In this document: one piece after another, positions 26,131-34,392 of the stretch
Layout: each line of letters opens with the position of its first letter
How positions within the stretch are numbered: position 1 is the stretch's first letter
NCBI GenBank assembly: GCA_902541695.1
Contig: CACBRT010000001.1
Coordinates: forward strand, 1-60,000
DNA from: an uncultured Alphaproteobacteria bacterium
GTDB taxonomy: Bacteria; Pseudomonadota; Alphaproteobacteria; Rhodobacterales; Rhodobacteraceae
Direction: 5' to 3'
DNA length: 60,000 bases
The notes under the pieces: generated by a model
What the model saw: only the letters and a program-made list of their open reading frames with translations
The model's database searches: none
What the model was told of the DNA's origin: nothing
Made by a program: the position numbers and the translations under genes

Positions 26131-27129
26131 TTGAAAATAAAATCAAATATTTTGATAACAGGCGGAACAGGTTCATTTGGATCAAAATTTATTCCACTAA
26201 CATTAGAAAAATATAATCCAAAAAGATTAGTAGTTTTTTCTCGTGATGAGATTAAGCAGTGGAATATGCAAAAAATATATCAAAATGATCCTAGAGTAAG
26301 ATTTTTTATTGGTGATGTTAGAGATAAAGATAGATTAATGAGAGCTTTAGATGGTATTGACTATGTAATACATGCAGCAGCAACAAAAATAGTACCTACA
26401 GCAGAATATAATCCTTTTGAATGTGTAAAAACTAATGTTCTTGGAGCTATGAATGTTATAGATGCTTGTTTAGATAAGAATATAAAAAAGTGTGTAGCAT
26501 TATCTACTGATAAAGCTTCAAATCCAATAAACCTCTACGGGGCGACTAAATTAGCTTCTGATAAAATGTTTGTTGCAGGTAATTCTTACTCTGGTTCTTC
26601 AAAGTGCAAATTCTCAGTTGTTAGATATGGGAATGTAATGGGATCTCGTGGGTCAGTTATTCCCTTTTTTTTACATAAAGAAAAAGAAGGTTATTTCCCA
26701 ATTACTGATTTGAGGATGACACGTTTCATGATCTCTTTAGAACAAGGTGTTGAATTAGTTTGGAAAGCTTTTGATGATATGGAAGGAGGAGAAATTTATG
26801 TAAAAAAAATTCCTTCCATGAAAGTTATTGATATAGCTAAATGTATTAATCCAAAAATAGATTTTAAAATTATTGGAATCAGACCAGGTGAAAAGTTGCA
26901 TGAACAAATGATTGGATTAGAGGATGCTCCAAATACTTATGAATATATTGATTATTATAAAATTTTTCCTGTTATTCAAAACTGGTTCAAAGATCCAGTT
27001 AAGATAAAAGGTGGTAAGAAAGTTTCAGAAGATTTTATTTACACCTCTGATACAAATACAGACTGGTTAAATAACAGGGATTTTAAAAAATGGCTTTCTG
27101 AAAATAGAAAGTCTGTTGAAATAATTTAA
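26131..27129 (+). CDS. pseB: UDP-N-acetylglucosamine 4,6-dehydratase, inverting (PseB-like)
   Basis: 332 residues from TTG, with AGAGG 7 bases upstream. Extended SDR: NILITGGTGSFG, then VVFSRDEIKQWNM, ALDGIDYVIHAAATKIVP, catalytic STDKA followed by NPINLYGATK (Asp-Lys pair and Tyr-x3-Lys), and RYGNVMGSRGSVIPFF. These are the hallmarks of the short PseB/FlaA1 form, not the long membrane-bound CapD. First step from UDP-GlcNAc toward pseudaminic-type sugars: dehydration with C5 inversion. First gene of the glycan locus, 17 bases before the NeuB-like synthase. Confidence 0.92.
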   Translation: MKIKSNILITGGTGSFGSKFIPLTLEKYNPKRLVVFSRDEIKQWNMQKIYQNDPRVRFFIGDVRDKDRLMRALDGIDYVIHAAATKIVPTAEYNPFECVKTNVLGAMNVIDACLDKNIKKCVALSTDKASNPINLYGATKLASDKMFVAGNSYSGSSKCKFSVVRYGNVMGSRGSVIPFFLHKEKEGYFPITDLRMTRFMISLEQGVELVWKAFDDMEGGEIYVKKIPSMKVIDIAKCINPKIDFKIIGIRPGEKLHEQMIGLEDAPNTYEYIDYYKIFPVIQNWFKDPVKIKGGKKVSEDFIYTSDTNTDWLNNRDFKKWLSENRKSVEII

Positions 27130-27146: not shown

Positions 27147-28232
27147 ATGAAAAAAGAAAAATATTGTAAAGAACTGTATTTAAATAACCGAAAAATAGGC
27201 GTTAATGAAAAAACATATTTTATTGCTGATATTGCAGCTAATCATGATGGTGATTTAGGCAGAGCTATTGATTTAATTAATTTGGCAAAAGAAGCTGGAG
27301 CTGATTGTGCTAAATTTCAACATTTTGAAGCTGAGACAATTGTAAGTGATAGGGGTTTTTCAGGAGAAATGTCATCAGTTTCTCACCAATCAAAATGGGA
27401 AAAAACAGTTTATGAAATATATGACCAATACCATACAAAATTAGAATGGACACAAGATCTTCTTGGTGAATGTAAAAAAGCAAACATAGATTTTATGACT
27501 ACACCATATAATTTTGAAGCAATTAAATTATTCAGAGATACCGTACCTGGATTTAAAATTGGATCTGGAGATATAACCTTTAAAAGTATTCTTGTAGAGA
27601 TTGCTAAGCAAGGCAAACCAGTTTTTTTAGCTACTGGTGCTTCAAGTTTAGAGGAAGTAAAAAGAAGTGTGGATATCCTTTTATCTTTAAATCCTAAAAT
27701 CTGTTTAATGCAATGTAATACCAACTATACTGGTGATATAAGCAATTTTAATTATGTGAATTTGAATGTGTTAAAAACTTTTTCTAAAATCTGGCCTGGT
27801 ATGGTTTTAGGATTATCTGACCATACCCCAGGTCATAGCACAGTTTTGGGTGCTATTTCGATGGGAGCTTCAGTTATTGAAAAACATTTTACAGATGATA
27901 ATTCTAGGAAAGGCCCAGATCATAATTTTGCAATGAATCCTAAGACTTGGAGTGATATGGTTAATTCTACTAGAGAATTAGAATTATCATTAGGCGACGG
28001 TATTAAGCGAATTGAAAAAAATGAAAAAGATACTGTTCTGATTCAAAGAAGAGCCTTAAGATTAAGAAAAAATATGAAAATTGGGGATATAATAACGCCA
28101 GAGGATATAGTTGCTTTAAGACCATGTCCAAAAAATGCATTGACACCCATGGATTATGATAATGTTATTGGGAAAAAGCTTGTTAACTGCAAAATTAGGG
28201 GGGAAGAAATTAGTTGGATGGATTTAATTTAG
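27147..28232 (+). CDS. NeuB/PseI-family nonulosonic acid synthase
   Basis: 361 residues. TIM-barrel synthase with YFIADIAANHDGD, CAKFQ, DFMTTPYNFEAI, FKIGSGDITF, LGLSDHTPGHST and the C-terminal SAF (antifreeze-like) domain from about residue 300 (KIGDIITPEDI). Condenses a hexosamine with phosphoenolpyruvate to give a nine-carbon acid sugar. The HD in ANHDGD replaces the common HN of NeuB, so sialic, legionaminic and pseudaminic acid cannot be told apart. The PseB neighbour suggests the pseudaminic side. Its end overlaps the glycosyltransferase start. Confidence 0.9.
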   Translation: MKKEKYCKELYLNNRKIGVNEKTYFIADIAANHDGDLGRAIDLINLAKEAGADCAKFQHFEAETIVSDRGFSGEMSSVSHQSKWEKTVYEIYDQYHTKLEWTQDLLGECKKANIDFMTTPYNFEAIKLFRDTVPGFKIGSGDITFKSILVEIAKQGKPVFLATGASSLEEVKRSVDILLSLNPKICLMQCNTNYTGDISNFNYVNLNVLKTFSKIWPGMVLGLSDHTPGHSTVLGAISMGASVIEKHFTDDNSRKGPDHNFAMNPKTWSDMVNSTRELELSLGDGIKRIEKNEKDTVLIQRRALRLRKNMKIGDIITPEDIVALRPCPKNALTPMDYDNVIGKKLVNCKIRGEEISWMDLI

Positions 28233-28852
28233 GTATTCTTATACCTGCTTTTAATGAAGAAAAAACAGTTGCAGAAATCATTTTAAAAGCAAGAAAATTT
28301 GGATCTGTAATTTTAAGTGATGATAGTAGTTTAGATAATACTATAAAATTATCAAAAAAAGCTGGCGCAAAAGTTTTAACTAATATTTTTGATAAAGGTT
28401 ATGAAGGAAACTTAAAAACTTTATTGAAATTTGCATCTGAAAAAGGACAATTTAGTCATTACATCACACTAGACGCAGATGGTGAGCTTCCTCCCGATCA
28501 AATTTCAAAGTTTCTTGAAAATATGCAATCATATGATTTATGTATTGGTCAAAGAAGCAAATTTAATCGAACTGTTGAATACTTTTTAGGTATATATTTT
28601 TACTTTAGATATGGTATTAGGGATCCTATTTCAGGTATGAAATTTTATTCAAAAAGTCTTTTATGTGATTTTTACAATGATAAAAGGGAACTTAATCTAG
28701 GTACTTCAATAATTAAGTTTTGCAAATCAAGAAAATACAAAATTAACACAATTAAAATTAAGGTAAAAAAAAGGAAAGATAGCTCTAGATTTGGAGAAAG
28801 TATTTTTTCTCAATTTAAATTAATAAGAATTATATTTAGAGATTTAAAATAG
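28214..28852 (+). CDS. Family 2 glycosyltransferase (DPM1-like), short
   Basis: 212 residues from TTG, overlapping the preceding gene by 19 bases. GT-A fold: LGILIPAFNEEKTVAEII at the start, VILSDDSSLDNT, and the DxD motif in ITLDADGELPPDQ. Ends at residue ~212 without the C-terminal membrane helices of many DPM1-like enzymes. Probably transfers a sugar from a nucleotide donor to a lipid or glycan acceptor; the acceptor is unknown. Its overlap with the NeuB-like gene points to a shared role in this locus. Confidence 0.85.
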   Translation: MDGFNLGILIPAFNEEKTVAEIILKARKFGSVILSDDSSLDNTIKLSKKAGAKVLTNIFDKGYEGNLKTLLKFASEKGQFSHYITLDADGELPPDQISKFLENMQSYDLCIGQRSKFNRTVEYFLGIYFYFRYGIRDPISGMKFYSKSLLCDFYNDKRELNLGTSIIKFCKSRKYKINTIKIKVKKRKDSSRFGESIFSQFKLIRIIFRDLK

Positions 28853-28968: not shown

Positions 28969-31002
28969 ATGTTTGAAAAAAAAATTGTAGCAATCATTCA
29001 GGCTAGAGTTTCATCAAAAAGGTTCCCTAGTAAAGTTTTACAACTGATAAACGGGAAAAGTGTAATATTATGGGTTATTAATAGAATAAAACAATGTTCT
29101 GAAATCGATAAAATTTGTATAGCTACTACTAATGATCCTACAGATGATGAGCTGGTAAATCATTTAAAAAGCGAAGATGTGTACATCTTTAGAGGTGAAA
29201 ATGAAGATGTGTTATCAAGATATTATCATTCAGCTAAAGAAATGAAAGCTTCCTATATTATTAGAATAACTGCAGACTGTCCTTTTGTAGATCCTTTTAT
29301 CATATCAAAAGTAATTAACCATTATAAGAAAAATGAAAAATTAGATTATGTTTCTAATACATTATCAGAAACATATCCAGATGGTTTAGATGTAGAAATG
29401 TTTTCATTTAATGCTTTAAAACTTGCACATTTTAATGCAAGCTCTCTATTTGAAAGAGAGCACGTGACTCCTTATATAAAAAATAATTGCTCTGTTGATA
29501 ATGTATATTCTGAATATTCTTTTGCTAAAGATCTTAGGTTAACAATCGATGAGCCAATCGATTTAAAAGTATTGAACCAAATAGTTATGATATCTGGTTT
29601 AAAAGATGATTTTAAATTTGCTGATATTGTAAATATATACAAAAAAGAACCACAAATTTTTTCTAAAAATATGCATTTAACTAGAAATTTTGGTAGTAAA
29701 CTTACTAGTAGTGAGAAAATTTGGAAAAGAGCAAAAAAAGTAATACCAGGTGGAACTATGCTTTTTTCTAAGAGGCCCGAACTTTTTCTTCCAGGTATTT
29801 GGCCAACATATTACAAAAAGTGTAAAGGAATATCTGTCTGGGACATGGATTCAAAACATTACTTAGATTTTTCATATATGGGTGTTGGGACTAATACACT
29901 AGGTTATGGTTGTGAGATAATTGATAAAGCTGTTTCAAGTGTTATAAAAAAAGGAAATTTGTGTACATTAAATAATCCTGACGAAGTACTATTAGCTGAG
30001 AAGCTAATAGATATAAGTCCTGGCCAAGAAATGGTGAGATTTACTAGATCTGGCGGTGAAGCTAATGCTGTTGCTATTAGAATTGCTAGAGCTGCTACAT
30101 CAAAAACTAATGTTGCTATTTGTGGGTATCATGGTTGGCATGATTGGTATTTAAGCGCCAATCATGAGAATGAAAATAACTTGAGCAAACACCTACTAAA
30201 AGGTCTTGGTGTTGATGGTGTTCCAAAACAACTATCAGGATTAACGATACCTTTTTTATATAATGATATTAATGAATTAAAAAATATATTAAGCAGCGGT
30301 AAAGTTAGTGCAGTCAAGATGGAAGTGAAGAGAAACATTGAACCTAACTCAACTTTTCTGAAAGATGTAAGAGAATTATGCGATAGGAAAAATGTTATTT
30401 TAATTTTTGATGAATGTACTTCGGGATTTAGAGAAACATATGGTGGATTATATAAAAAATATGATGTTGTACCTGATATGTTAATTTATGGTAAAACACT
30501 TGGTAACGGTTATGCAATCAATGCTATTTTAGGGAAAAGAGAAGTAATGGAAGCAGCACAAAATACATTCATAAGTTCGACTTTTTGGACTGAAGCAATA
30601 GGTACTGCAGCTGCAATAGCAACATTAAATGAAATGAAGAGGATTGAATCTTGGAAGATTATTTCAGATCTTGGTGAATATTTTAATAAAGGCTTAAAAA
30701 AAATAGCAAAGAAAAATTCAATAAATATTGATACTTACGGACTTAAACCTTTAAGGTCTTTCACTTTTGAAAAATGGCATTTAGAACGTAAAACTTTTTT
30801 GACAAAAGAAATGTTAAAATTAGGGTGGTTAGCAACTAATGCTTTTTATGCTTCTACTGTGCATACGAAAAAAAATATCGACGACTATTTAAATGACCTT
30901 GATACAGTATTTCATAGTCTTAAAGATCTTGATTTTGATGACGATATTACAAGAAAAAAAATTGGTAATTTATGTCATTCTGGTTTCAAAAGACTGAACT
31001 AG
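28969..31002 (+). CDS. Fusion: SpsF-type cytidylyltransferase + class III (GSA-like) aminotransferase
   Basis: 677 residues in two domains. Residues ~1-235 are a CTP-transferase of the SpsF type: IIQARVSSKRFPSKVL, FRGENEDVLSRYY, IIRITADCPFVDPF. Residues ~245-665 are a PLP aminotransferase of the glutamate-1-semialdehyde aminomutase type: RFTRSGGEANAVAIRIA, CGYHGWHDWY, LIFDECTSGF (Asp481 for the PLP nitrogen), and YGKTLGNGYAI with Schiff-base Lys509. No frameshift or stop separates them. In a nonulosonate-like locus the first half would activate a sugar acid with CMP and the second would aminate a keto sugar, in place of the usual separate DegT-type aminotransferase. Substrates are inferred only. 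Confidence 0.88.
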   Translation: MFEKKIVAIIQARVSSKRFPSKVLQLINGKSVILWVINRIKQCSEIDKICIATTNDPTDDELVNHLKSEDVYIFRGENEDVLSRYYHSAKEMKASYIIRITADCPFVDPFIISKVINHYKKNEKLDYVSNTLSETYPDGLDVEMFSFNALKLAHFNASSLFEREHVTPYIKNNCSVDNVYSEYSFAKDLRLTIDEPIDLKVLNQIVMISGLKDDFKFADIVNIYKKEPQIFSKNMHLTRNFGSKLTSSEKIWKRAKKVIPGGTMLFSKRPELFLPGIWPTYYKKCKGISVWDMDSKHYLDFSYMGVGTNTLGYGCEIIDKAVSSVIKKGNLCTLNNPDEVLLAEKLIDISPGQEMVRFTRSGGEANAVAIRIARAATSKTNVAICGYHGWHDWYLSANHENENNLSKHLLKGLGVDGVPKQLSGLTIPFLYNDINELKNILSSGKVSAVKMEVKRNIEPNSTFLKDVRELCDRKNVILIFDECTSGFRETYGGLYKKYDVVPDMLIYGKTLGNGYAINAILGKREVMEAAQNTFISSTFWTEAIGTAAAIATLNEMKRIESWKIISDLGEYFNKGLKKIAKKNSINIDTYGLKPLRSFTFEKWHLERKTFLTKEMLKLGWLATNAFYASTVHTKKNIDDYLNDLDTVFHSLKDLDFDDDITRKKIGNLCHSGFKRLN

Positions 31003-31014
31003 TAATTATTGTAT

Positions 31015-31896
31015 ATGAATAATGAAGAATTTATAATTTTAGGTAGTTCAGGTTTCGTAGGTTCTTCTATTCAATATTATATTTCTCATATAAAACAAAA
31101 ACATTTTGTTCATTTTATTTCTCGTTCAAAAAATAAATTAGTTGATTTTGAGCCAAGTCTTCGTTTTTATTCAGGTTGTATATTGGATAATTTAAACCAA
31201 ATAATTCTCAAGGCTGGGAAAAATAAGAAATTTATTATAATTAATTTAATTGGAAAAATTACAAATGATTTGGATAAGTTAAATGACGTAGAAAAATTAA
31301 CTCAATCATTCTTATCAATTTTAAATAAAAAAAACACAAAAAGATTCTTACATATTTCTTCAAGTGCTGTCTATGACGGTTTAAACAAAAAAATTAATAT
31401 AACAGAAAAAACTTGTCCTTATTCAAATACAAATTACGGTAAATCAAAATTAAACTTGGAAAACCTAATGATGTCTTCATCTATTAGGGAGATTACAACA
31501 ATTATAAGAGTAGGAAATATCCTTGGTGGAGATTCCTTAACAAAAAATTTTCAAACAGATAATAAACAAAAAAAAATACTAGAGATATATGATGATGGGC
31601 TGAGCGCTTTAAGAACTTATATTGATCCGTTAAACTTTAGTAGATTATTGTTCAAAATAGCGAACAAAAATCTAATAAATAACTCCGTATATAACTGTGG
31701 TACTTTAAAACCTTTTTTTATGCAGGATGTTTTAAAAGCTTTGAATGTAGATTACGAGGTTACCTACTCAAATAATAATAAAAACCAATATTTCACATTA
31801 AATATAAATAAAATTTCAAAAGAGCTAAATAATAAATTGAGATATAACCTCGATGAAATGGCTTCAAATACCATTGCAGTTATTAATAAACAATAG
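31015..31896 (+). CDS. NAD-dependent epimerase/dehydratase-family protein
   Basis: 293 residues; ATG at 31015 preferred over the TTG two codons upstream. Extended SDR: FIILGSSGFVGSS nucleotide-binding loop, then FLHISSSAVYDG and NYGKSKLNLE with Tyr-x3-Lys, and IIRVGNILGGD. Sequence is diverged, Lys/Asn/Ile-rich and more AT-rich than surrounding genes, suggesting it belongs to a faster-evolving or transferred glycan cluster. Product may be a reduced or epimerised nucleotide sugar; not assignable further. Starts 12 bases after the fusion gene stop and converges with the capsule-type gene. Confidence 0.8.
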   Translation: MNNEEFIILGSSGFVGSSIQYYISHIKQKHFVHFISRSKNKLVDFEPSLRFYSGCILDNLNQIILKAGKNKKFIIINLIGKITNDLDKLNDVEKLTQSFLSILNKKNTKRFLHISSSAVYDGLNKKINITEKTCPYSNTNYGKSKLNLENLMMSSSIREITTIIRVGNILGGDSLTKNFQTDNKQKKILEIYDDGLSALRTYIDPLNFSRLLFKIANKNLINNSVYNCGTLKPFFMQDVLKALNVDYEVTYSNNNKNQYFTLNINKISKELNNKLRYNLDEMASNTIAVINKQ

Positions 31897-31899
31897 CTA

Positions 31900-33402
31900 T
31901 TAAAAAGTTGTATTTTTATTGTTTAAAATTAGATCTCTAATAATAACTGAAGTCTCAAAACTGTTTTCTTCTTCATTATAATCATTTACTAAATTTGTAT
32001 AAGCCCTATCTACAATACCCTTGTGTGAATTTCCCATTAACTCTGAAAATTTATATTTTAATTTTTTTGGTGTTGGTTTGTTATTAACTATTTTTTGATA
32101 AGTTATTCCTTTTTCAAACTCAGTCACTCCTGGAAATTTTCTATACCAAGCATATCCAAAAGTAAGAACACTTTTTCCTGCACATATAGATTCCCAACCA
32201 ACGGTTCCTGTAGTTGTTGCAACAAATATTGAATTTTCTAATAATTCTTTTGTATTTGCATAAGAAGGAACAAATACTACTGATTTTATTCTTGATATTC
32301 TATGAAAAAAAAGTGGTCCTCTTGCGTATGAACCTTGTTTTGGATTTTCTTTTACGAAAATCTTTATGTCATCTGGCAATATTTTTGATAATTCTTCAAT
32401 TGCTAGTAATTGATCTCTGTAGATACCGCCAATTGGAGAAGTTGTCATCTCTGGTTGCATTGGTAATGGGAAATACACAAATTTTTTCCTAATATCAAAA
32501 TCAGCACTCTCAAACTCTGAAAGGTGCTCAAAATATGCTAACTCATTTACATGGAAAAAATTAGCGAATGGATCACGCCATTTTGGAAAGGATTTATAAA
32601 TTTTATTTACTCTAGAAAATATTTTCCAAATATATAAAGGTTTAATAATAATTTTTGGATTTTTAAAAAAAGCATAAAGAATAAAATTTATAAAAGTTTT
32701 AATATTGATAATGCCATGTTTTTCATTTTTTTGTTTAATTTTTTTCATATAAAATAAATTTAATTTTGGAAGATTAATTAATTCAACATCTTTGGATTTC
32801 AGATTTGATCTTAACATTCCGTAATTTTCAATAGACCTAAGTGAGAAAAATTTATTGGGTATTAAAGACTGCGTAACTATTGTTACATCAATATTCAATG
32901 CCTTTGCAACTTGATAGACTATAGTATCATAGGCTAGGTGGGGTATATTAAAAAATAATATATGATTTATTTTATTTATTATTATTAATTCACTTATTGC
33001 ATCAGCAAGTATGTGGTAGTAATCGATATAGTCTTGAAGGTTTTTTAAATTATGTGATTTATATCTATATGCATCGGAATGTCTATAAAGTTGATCTATA
33101 AATGTTTCTAAATCCCTTTTGTAATAAGGATTAGCCATTAATTGGTATTCGAATCCATAGAAATTTTTATTTTTTTCAAATATATGTCCACCAGTTCCTT
33201 TTTTGTTATTCATACGAACTAATGAAGATGCTTTAAATTGATTTGAAATATCTCCAAAATGGAGTTTTAGGTTTATTTGTCCTGAAGATAAATTGATTAT
33301 ATTTTTTAATATTTTATTTGTATTTTTAGCAGTTGAAATAGCAAAAAGATTTATTTTTATAATATTATTATTTTCTTTTTTCTGATTTTTTTGAGGTCGC
33401 AT
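31900..33402 (-). CDS. Capsule polysaccharide biosynthesis-type protein (KpsC/KpsS-like)
   Basis: 500 residues, no signal peptide. C-terminal half has the pattern of the capsule polysaccharide biosynthesis family: FVYFPLPMQPEMTTSP, KIFVKENPKQ, VVFVPSYANTKELLENS, and VATTTGTVGWESICAGKSVL followed by GYAWY and PGV. The KpsC/KpsS family contains beta-Kdo transferases that build the linker of capsules, so it may transfer Kdo or a nonulosonic acid. N-terminal ~200 residues are strongly Lys/Asn/Ile-rich and unrecognised. Minus strand, meeting the epimerase tail-to-tail with a 3-base gap. Confidence 0.72.
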   Translation of the reverse strand: MRPQKNQKKENNNIIKINLFAISTAKNTNKILKNIINLSSGQINLKLHFGDISNQFKASSLVRMNNKKGTGGHIFEKNKNFYGFEYQLMANPYYKRDLETFIDQLYRHSDAYRYKSHNLKNLQDYIDYYHILADAISELIIINKINHILFFNIPHLAYDTIVYQVAKALNIDVTIVTQSLIPNKFFSLRSIENYGMLRSNLKSKDVELINLPKLNLFYMKKIKQKNEKHGIINIKTFINFILYAFFKNPKIIIKPLYIWKIFSRVNKIYKSFPKWRDPFANFFHVNELAYFEHLSEFESADFDIRKKFVYFPLPMQPEMTTSPIGGIYRDQLLAIEELSKILPDDIKIFVKENPKQGSYARGPLFFHRISRIKSVVFVPSYANTKELLENSIFVATTTGTVGWESICAGKSVLTFGYAWYRKFPGVTEFEKGITYQKIVNNKPTPKKLKYKFSELMGNSHKGIVDRAYTNLVNDYNEEENSFETSVIIRDLILNNKNTTF

Positions 33403-33513: not shown

Positions 33514-34392
33514 TTATAATTTCCATATCCTAGGATCTAATAATCTATCATTAATCAATGGAGAAAAATCAGGTTTATTAATCAAAAAAGTTTTATCAAA
33601 ATATTTTAAAACTTGTATTAGTTGATTTTTTGAATTTATTCCAATAATAACTTTATCTATGAAAGATATAGAATTTATAAATTTAATACAGGCTTCCAAA
33701 GGTTGCAAACCGTTAGATATAAGCCAGTTTTCCCAATATAACCAAAAACTTTTAAATTTTAAAAATTGTAACGGAAGATTTTCTAAAGAATTTAAAAGTA
33801 TTCCTTGTAGAAAAATTGACCTTACATGAATCTCTATACCCAGATTTGAAATATTTTCTAGATAATTATTCTCAAGCAATCTTGTATCAATTATATTAAG
33901 TGGACATTGAATAATTTCAGGTTGGAATATTTCTAATATTTCATCTATTTCTTTTTTATTATATATTGAAACACCAATTTTGCTTATAATTCCATTTTTT
34001 TTTAGTGCTAACAAAGATTCTATTATCTCTGTTTCATACGACTTCAAGTCTTCAGGGTAATGTAATAAAACTGCTTCAAGTTTGTTGACTTTTAACTCTT
34101 TTATTGATTTTAGGATTTGATAATGGCACCAATCATACGCATTTTCAATCCCACGAGGAATTTTTGGTAATTTTGTAATTATTTTCCATTTTTTCACTCC
34201 TAATTCACCAAGTTTTTTTGAACAATCACCATAATTTATTGCTGTATCCAAAATATTAACTTTTTTATTTTTTGCAAAATCTAATATTTTTGTTATTTCT
34301 TCCGAATCTAATTGAGTATTTAGATTACCCTGACCATAATTTTGCCCAAAATTAGCTGTTCCTATTATTAATTGTTTATTTTTTTTCCTCAT
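33514..34392 (-). CDS. Aldo/keto reductase family protein
   Basis: 292 residues with the aldo/keto reductase barrel: IIGTANFGQNYG at the start, ILDTAINYGD (catalytic Asp and Tyr), WKIITKLPK (Lys) and VLLHYPEDL (His), which complete the tetrad. In-family C-terminal ILNSLENL and VIIGINSKNQL. Similar proteins in sugar loci reduce keto or aldehyde sugars or are annotated with pseudaminic/legionaminic clusters. Upstream of the capsule-type gene on the same strand (111-base gap), so probably one transcript with it. Confidence 0.85.
   Translation of the reverse strand: MRKKNKQLIIGTANFGQNYGQGNLNTQLDSEEITKILDFAKNKKVNILDTAINYGDCSKKLGELGVKKWKIITKLPKIPRGIENAYDWCHYQILKSIKELKVNKLEAVLLHYPEDLKSYETEIIESLLALKKNGIISKIGVSIYNKKEIDEILEIFQPEIIQCPLNIIDTRLLENNYLENISNLGIEIHVRSIFLQGILLNSLENLPLQFLKFKSFWLYWENWLISNGLQPLEACIKFINSISFIDKVIIGINSKNQLIQVLKYFDKTFLINKPDFSPLINDRLLDPRIWKL

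Follow-up and report, generated by a model that had tools for sequence, protein, structure and literature searches.

A widespread fusion of an SpsF-type cytidylyltransferase and a class III aminotransferase, probably acting on nonulosonic acids

Within a 60,000-nucleotide stretch of DNA from an uncultured member of the Rhodobacteraceae (contig CACBRT010000001.1, positions 1 to 60,000; hereafter, the window), a single open reading frame joins an SpsF-type cytidylyltransferase to a class III PLP aminotransferase. Which sugar do these two domains serve, and at which step of its synthesis does the aminotransferase act? The original prediction, made from the nucleotide sequence, was that amination of a sugar is coupled to its CMP-activation, with the class III enzyme standing in for a DegT-type aminotransferase on a UDP-4-keto sugar. 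The frame lies in a cluster with the following order:

26131..27129, + strand: PseB, UDP-GlcNAc 4,6-dehydratase (inverting); TIGR03589, 519.8 bits, cut-off 407.75
27147..28232, + strand: NeuB-family synthase of a distinct subfamily, below the PseI and NnaB cut-offs
28214..28852, + strand: small GT2 glycosyltransferase beside NeuB (PF00535)
28969..31002, + strand: SpsF:aminotransferase fusion; ATG start, 677 aa, no internal stop
28969..29688, + strand: SpsF-type CTP:3-deoxy-ulosonate cytidylyltransferase half, residues 1-240 (by Pfam, profile and fold)
29664..29701, + strand: fusion linker; SpsF C-terminal tail motif RNEG (RNFG in the window) abutting the aminotransferase N-terminus
29698..30999, + strand: class III PLP aminotransferase half, residues 244-677 (by Pfam Aminotran_3 and fold)
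31009..31896, + strand: NAD-dependent SDR, candidate 4-keto reductase (PF01370), starting 6 bp after the fusion
31900..33402, - strand: PF05159 (capsule synthesis) protein; Pfam 32.1 bits, cut-off 20
33514..34392, - strand: aldo/keto reductase (AKR), conserved partner of the fusion (PF00248; tetrad D49-Y54-K74-H111)

Two intact halves in one frame

The ATG of the fusion is preceded by an AAGGGA-like ribosome site, and both halves exceed their Pfam cut-offs: CTP_transf_3 (PF02348) matched residues 7-198 with 116.7 bits (cut-off 22.6), and Aminotran_3 (PF00202) matched residues 280-583 with 140 bits (cut-off 30.5). The predicted union of the two domains in one intact 677-aa frame was thus borne out, as was the integrity of the catalytic residues D481 and K509, which are invariant in 44 fused relatives. 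In AlphaFold models (pLDDT 88.5 for the whole fusion and 96.8 for the first half alone), the SpsF fold spans residues 3-238, with a Z score of 33.0 to a Leptospira cytidylyltransferase (6oew). A profile search with this half matched KdsB and NeuA structures, and its model scored Z 19.4 to the CMP-Kdo synthetase 1gqc and approximately 19 to CMP-sialate synthetases, both of which rank level with other nucleotidyltransferases among the structure matches. Profile and predicted fold both show a relationship between the SpsF half and CMP-ulosonate synthetases.

The structure model of the second half places a class III fold at residues 244-651/671, with Z scores of 42.1 to the aminopentol aminotransferase FumI and 40.0 to glutamate semialdehyde (GSA) aminomutase (HemL). 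While the fold is shared with both enzymes, the half is only 24% and 28% identical to them, respectively, is encoded in a polysaccharide operon and falls far below the HemL cut-offs (TIGR00713, 191.2 of 527.3 bits; NF000818, 193.8 of 398 bits). The cut-off of PRK06209 was also missed (221.9 of 486). In the sequence alignment only, Trp67 of GSA aminomutase falls opposite a gap and its Arg32 lies close to an insertion; both are substrate-binding residues of that enzyme (Synechococcus numbering). A heme role was ruled out because the HemL cut-off was not reached; neither a HemL over cut-off nor an ALA synthase was found in the genome's own assembly (70% complete). The closeness to GSA aminomutase might also be taken to mean that this half is a PMP-dependent aminomutase, moving an amine along the chain (e.g., from C7 to C8). 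We consider this very improbable in light of the shortfall against HemL (191 of 527 bits) and the conserved oxidoreductase partner of the fusion, and because clusters without PseC offer no C7 amine.

Distribution of fused and split forms

The fusion was found in six congeners (46-48% identity) and, beyond these, in around 60 further genomes, with about 12 other alphaproteobacterial genomes among the carriers. A scan of genome contigs placed it at 52 loci in many phyla, single-cell genomes included. Carriers include Prochlorococcus, Synechococcus, Moorena, Chlorobium, Legionellaceae, Marinobacter, Pelagibacteraceae and Sphingobacterium, where some titles of metagenome-bin records may be unreliable. 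It is also annotated in RefSeq on an isolate plasmid, pSMR1-1 of Pseudosulfitobacter pseudonitzschiae. Since the fusion recurs in congeners, other phyla and an isolate plasmid, it reflects neither chance nor sequencing error. An erroneous joining of two adjacent genes, as the original prediction had allowed for, is likewise ruled out by its recurrence across many independent genomes.

In most Bacteroidota, separate adjoining genes encode these two domains, with the order unchanged and intergenic gaps of -8 to 31 bases, indicating that the two halves are partners. The split point falls at the 11-residue linker (232/244). Split SpsF proteins carry the C-terminal tail RNEGxxxS..., split aminotransferases begin with MGKGQ, and fused proteins read RNEGxxMxxGQKLW at the junction. 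Many linkers thus retain the former start codon. On a quick aminotransferase tree, fused forms alternate with split ones, with 12 changes, at least six of which are forced by well supported branches. Hence, fusion or fission has occurred repeatedly, which argues for a working partnership between the two halves. A second alphaproteobacterial group, more distantly related, has a longer linker of its own.

The literature searched, from which most subscription papers were absent, yielded neither a description of the fusion nor a function for it. Within this literature the architecture counts as undescribed, but it is itself common in public genomes. Provisionally, we regard it as a genuine and widespread bifunctional architecture of nonulosonic-acid biosynthesis that has apparently gone undescribed.

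Operon context and the position of the aminotransferase

Operon order was derived from the clustering of neighbouring genes and from family searches. The order PseB-PseC-(often GNAT)-AKR-fusion-PseG-PseI is conserved in many phyla. For example, the RefSeq plasmid pSMR1-1 of strain SMR1 carries the full set, the AKR (WP_089422654.1) and the fusion (WP_089422657.1) being separated by a GNAT and one hypothetical gene. An AKR is located near the fusion in 55 of the 63 group I loci with sufficient flanks, and its catalytic tetrad, complete in the window, is conserved in relatives; the window AKR lies below the KidO-type cut-off (NF011432, 106.7 of 244 bits). Several loci lacking an AKR have a Gfo/Idh/MocA oxidoreductase close by (L084, L089, L102 and L157), and an SDR is the oxidoreductase neighbour in a more distant relative (Methylomagnum). 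No oxidoreductase neighbour was recognised in some loci.

Other arrangements of these domains were also observed. At L150:3337-5037, a 566-aa fusion of a KdsB/SpsF-like domain to an aldo/keto reductase lies directly before the SpsF:aminotransferase fusion. The same pairing is known from Vibrio sp. B9-25K2 (PMC7371886), where the partner domains likewise occur in a Pse-type cluster but SpsF is joined to the AKR rather than to the aminotransferase. On a plasmid of the archaeon Halorussus aquaticus (L197), a Gfo/Idh/MocA oxidoreductase, an SpsF-like gene (annotated as a glycosyltransferase) and a class III aminotransferase stand in a row. On a Methylomagnum ishizawai plasmid (L205), the distant relative has as neighbours an SDR, a HAD hydrolase, a NeuB-family synthase and two transketolase halves, which may belong to another ulosonate pathway. 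Putative viral contigs from IMG/VR (L056-L061, L064 and L069) encode a class III aminotransferase of the superfamily with PseB-like and mostly also NeuB-like genes, which raises the possibility that phages synthesize or modify nonulosonic acids.

PseC, the aminotransferase that the class III enzyme was originally predicted to replace, is kept in 36 of the 42 relatives adjoining a PseI-type synthase. This argues against the predicted replacement of a DegT-type enzyme on a UDP-4-keto sugar, and indicates that in these loci the class III enzyme is additional and acts elsewhere than at C4 of the UDP sugar (later C7). The window itself belongs to a different type of cluster. PseC over cut-off was absent from its own genome (70% complete assembly; best match 104.7 of 423.5 bits), PseG had no match there, and no UDP-sugar hydrolase was recognised in the window. 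Its NeuB-family synthase scored 264.4 bits against the NnaB model TIGR03569 (cut-off 399.65) and 219.4 against the PseI model TIGR03586 (cut-off 340.25), and is 42-56% identical to synthases of other PseC-less clusters versus 28-29% to those of the congeners. This subfamily occurs in nine other loci (e.g., in Neptuniibacter caesariensis, a SAR116 cell and two Pelagibacteraceae cells), and none of the 10 loci contains PseC or PseG, while six contain an RmlD-like reductase. The window SDR is a candidate 4-keto reductase that would replace the RmlD-like gene of these related clusters. Relatives of the small GT2 glycosyltransferase directly follow NeuB in L131, L115, L132 and L148.

The absence of PseC from all 10 loci, together with the lack of PseC and PseG in the window genome, could suggest that here the class III half does serve as the C4 (later C7) aminotransferase on the PseB product. 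We nonetheless find this improbable, as the fusion family coexists with PseC in most other loci, no PseG is present to release the UDP sugar, and the RmlD-like reductase of several PseC-less clusters would consume the 4-keto group. Moreover, although PseC is truly missing from the window cluster, on the SpsF tree fusions from PseC-plus and PseC-less settings are mixed roughly as shuffled labels would be, and no residue column cleanly separates them. Most likely, the fusion therefore catalyzes the same reaction in both settings, at a portion of the molecule shared by the two types.

The congeners carry a PseC-type cassette at the same chromosomal place as the window cluster. When the window (20837-42923) was compared with the congeners (L071-L076), most flanking genes were 58-87% identical and PseB 80-84%, in contrast to 28-29% for NeuB, 46-47% for the fusion and 50-53% for the AKR. 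By this comparison of sequences, the sugar cassette is exchanged at this locus. The place between waaA/pgi and the lspA/mutL side thus holds alternative nonulosonate cassettes, with NeuB, PseC, PseG and glycosyltransferase genes swapped. The PF05159 gene (62-63% identical at the same locus in congeners) adjoins both cassette types. Its product may be a CMP-sugar-using transferase, because KpsC/KpsS-related proteins use CMP-Kdo.

A proposed terminal amination and CMP-activation

The fusion is likely to carry out both amination and CMP-activation of an ulosonate. More specifically, we propose, at roughly even chances, that it catalyzes the final two reactions in a modified nonulosonic-acid pathway, namely amination at C8 following oxidation by the AKR, and then CMP-activation. 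PseB would generate a 4-keto-6-deoxy sugar nucleotide, which in most relatives would be converted to a diamino sugar by PseC, PseH and PseG; in the window type, the SDR would instead reduce the 4-keto group. Condensation of the released sugar with PEP by a NeuB-type synthase would yield a 9-deoxy nonulosonic acid, and the AKR (elsewhere a Gfo/Idh/MocA or SDR enzyme) would oxidize its C8 hydroxyl. Transamination of the resulting C8 ketone by the class III half would then give an amine, after which the SpsF half would make the CMP form of the 8-amino sugar, ready to be transferred to a surface polysaccharide. Nonulosonate C8 derives from hexose C5, the oxygen of which sits in the ring of the precursor, so oxidation and amination at C8 could only follow the synthase step. 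Amination would thereby fall right before CMP-activation, which offers a reason for the domain fusion. The predicted coupling of amination to CMP-activation is supported for a nonulosonic-acid pathway enzyme, the two halves of which also occur as adjoining split genes; the UDP-4-keto substrate proposed with it is not supported.

C8 is our best single guess for the amination site, with the scales about level, and it draws on elimination and one chemical precedent. FumI, whose solved structure is the closest match to the aminotransferase half, acts on a CH3-CH(NH2)-CH(OH)- group, a pattern that resembles C9-C8-C7 and so counts in favor of C8. In six Bacteroidota loci, two different GNATs flank the SpsF/aminotransferase pair, as would be expected for two amino groups to acylate. 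AKRs usually work in the reducing direction, which counts against the proposed oxidation, as do the window's lack of a recognised UDP-sugar hydrolase and the loci without an oxidoreductase neighbour against the pathway in general. The precedent, the sole chemical one, is 8-amino-3,5,7,8,9-pentadeoxynonulosonic acid, a known sugar of the Tenacibaculum (Flexibacter) maritimum O-antigen (PMC3210612). We found no paper in the literature searched that assigns genes to an 8-amino-nonulosonic acid, and a 16S probe with published primers detected no T. maritimum genome among the sampled Flavobacteriaceae (20, then 397). In Legionella pneumophila serogroup 6/12, a GSAM-like gene shares the LPS locus with a cytidylyltransferase and an aldo/keto reductase (PMC3694923). 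Non-1 serogroups of this species reportedly have a 5,7-diamino sugar, according to the title of a work cited in PMC3210612; set against the comparable serogroup 6 genes, this may count against C8.

Two further readings retain most of this scheme. The operon evidence would fit any free hydroxyl shared by both cluster types, so oxidation and transamination might target the C4 hydroxyl or some other hydroxyl group of the nonulosonic acid instead of C8, with the remaining steps as proposed. We judge this unlikely: to our knowledge, no 4-amino bacterial nonulosonate exists, while an 8-amino one is known (PMC3210612). Alternatively, the AKR and the class III half may together alter C8 stereochemistry, by an oxidation and its reversal, without adding nitrogen, or provide an amine for a structurally different ulosonic acid. 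C8 epimers do occur naturally, for example 8-epiacinetaminic acid (PMC5595891), and the L. pneumophila serogroup 6 locus (PMC3694923) can be read this way as well. However, epimerisation by an oxidoreductase needs no PLP aminotransferase with intact catalytic residues, and we hold this pair of readings to be rather doubtful.

The proposed 8-amination pathway resembles parts of known systems. In the Shewanella Kdo8N pathway, the dehydrogenase KdnB and the aminotransferase KdnA oxidise and then aminate C8 before CMP activation. The fusion pathway would share this sequence of events on a 3-deoxy-ulosonic acid, but Kdo8N appears to be set apart by its other enzyme families, its octulosonate substrate and the lack of a fusion. 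The pseudaminic acid pathway (PseB-C-H-G-I-F) is matched by the window PseB and by the PseB/C/G/I genes around most fusion relatives; unlike that pathway, an SpsF domain replaces the PseF-type synthetase, the AKR and class III aminotransferase are extra, and in the window cluster PseC and PseG are missing and the NeuB-family synthase belongs to a different subfamily. The B. subtilis sps legionaminic acid pathway also uses an SpsF-type cytidylyltransferase for a nonulosonate, although there SpsF stands alone, SpsC and SpsD are separate, and no fusion is described (PMC7439481).

The window cluster represents the less common, PseC-free type, and its product is probably new. Tentatively, this could be an undescribed 8-amino, 7-hydroxy, 9-deoxy nonulosonic acid made via a PseC-free branch, with the fusion acting as a general terminal 8-amino module across Bacteria and Archaea carrying related gene pairs; fusaminic acid, of which the product would be an 8-amino relative, provides a precedent for the 7-hydroxy, 9-deoxy scaffold (PMC13014188). 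In general, the fusion probably adds an amino group to a rare nine-carbon, sialic-acid-like surface sugar and then activates it for construction of the cell coat. If so, a class of surface sugars with additional amino groups, so far described only chemically, would gain its genes, genome sequences would suffice to predict which marine, gut and other bacteria make them, and labels of GSA aminomutase (heme biosynthesis) on genes of polysaccharide loci would have to be revised. The existence of both split and fused versions constitutes a natural test of channelling between amination and CMP-activation.
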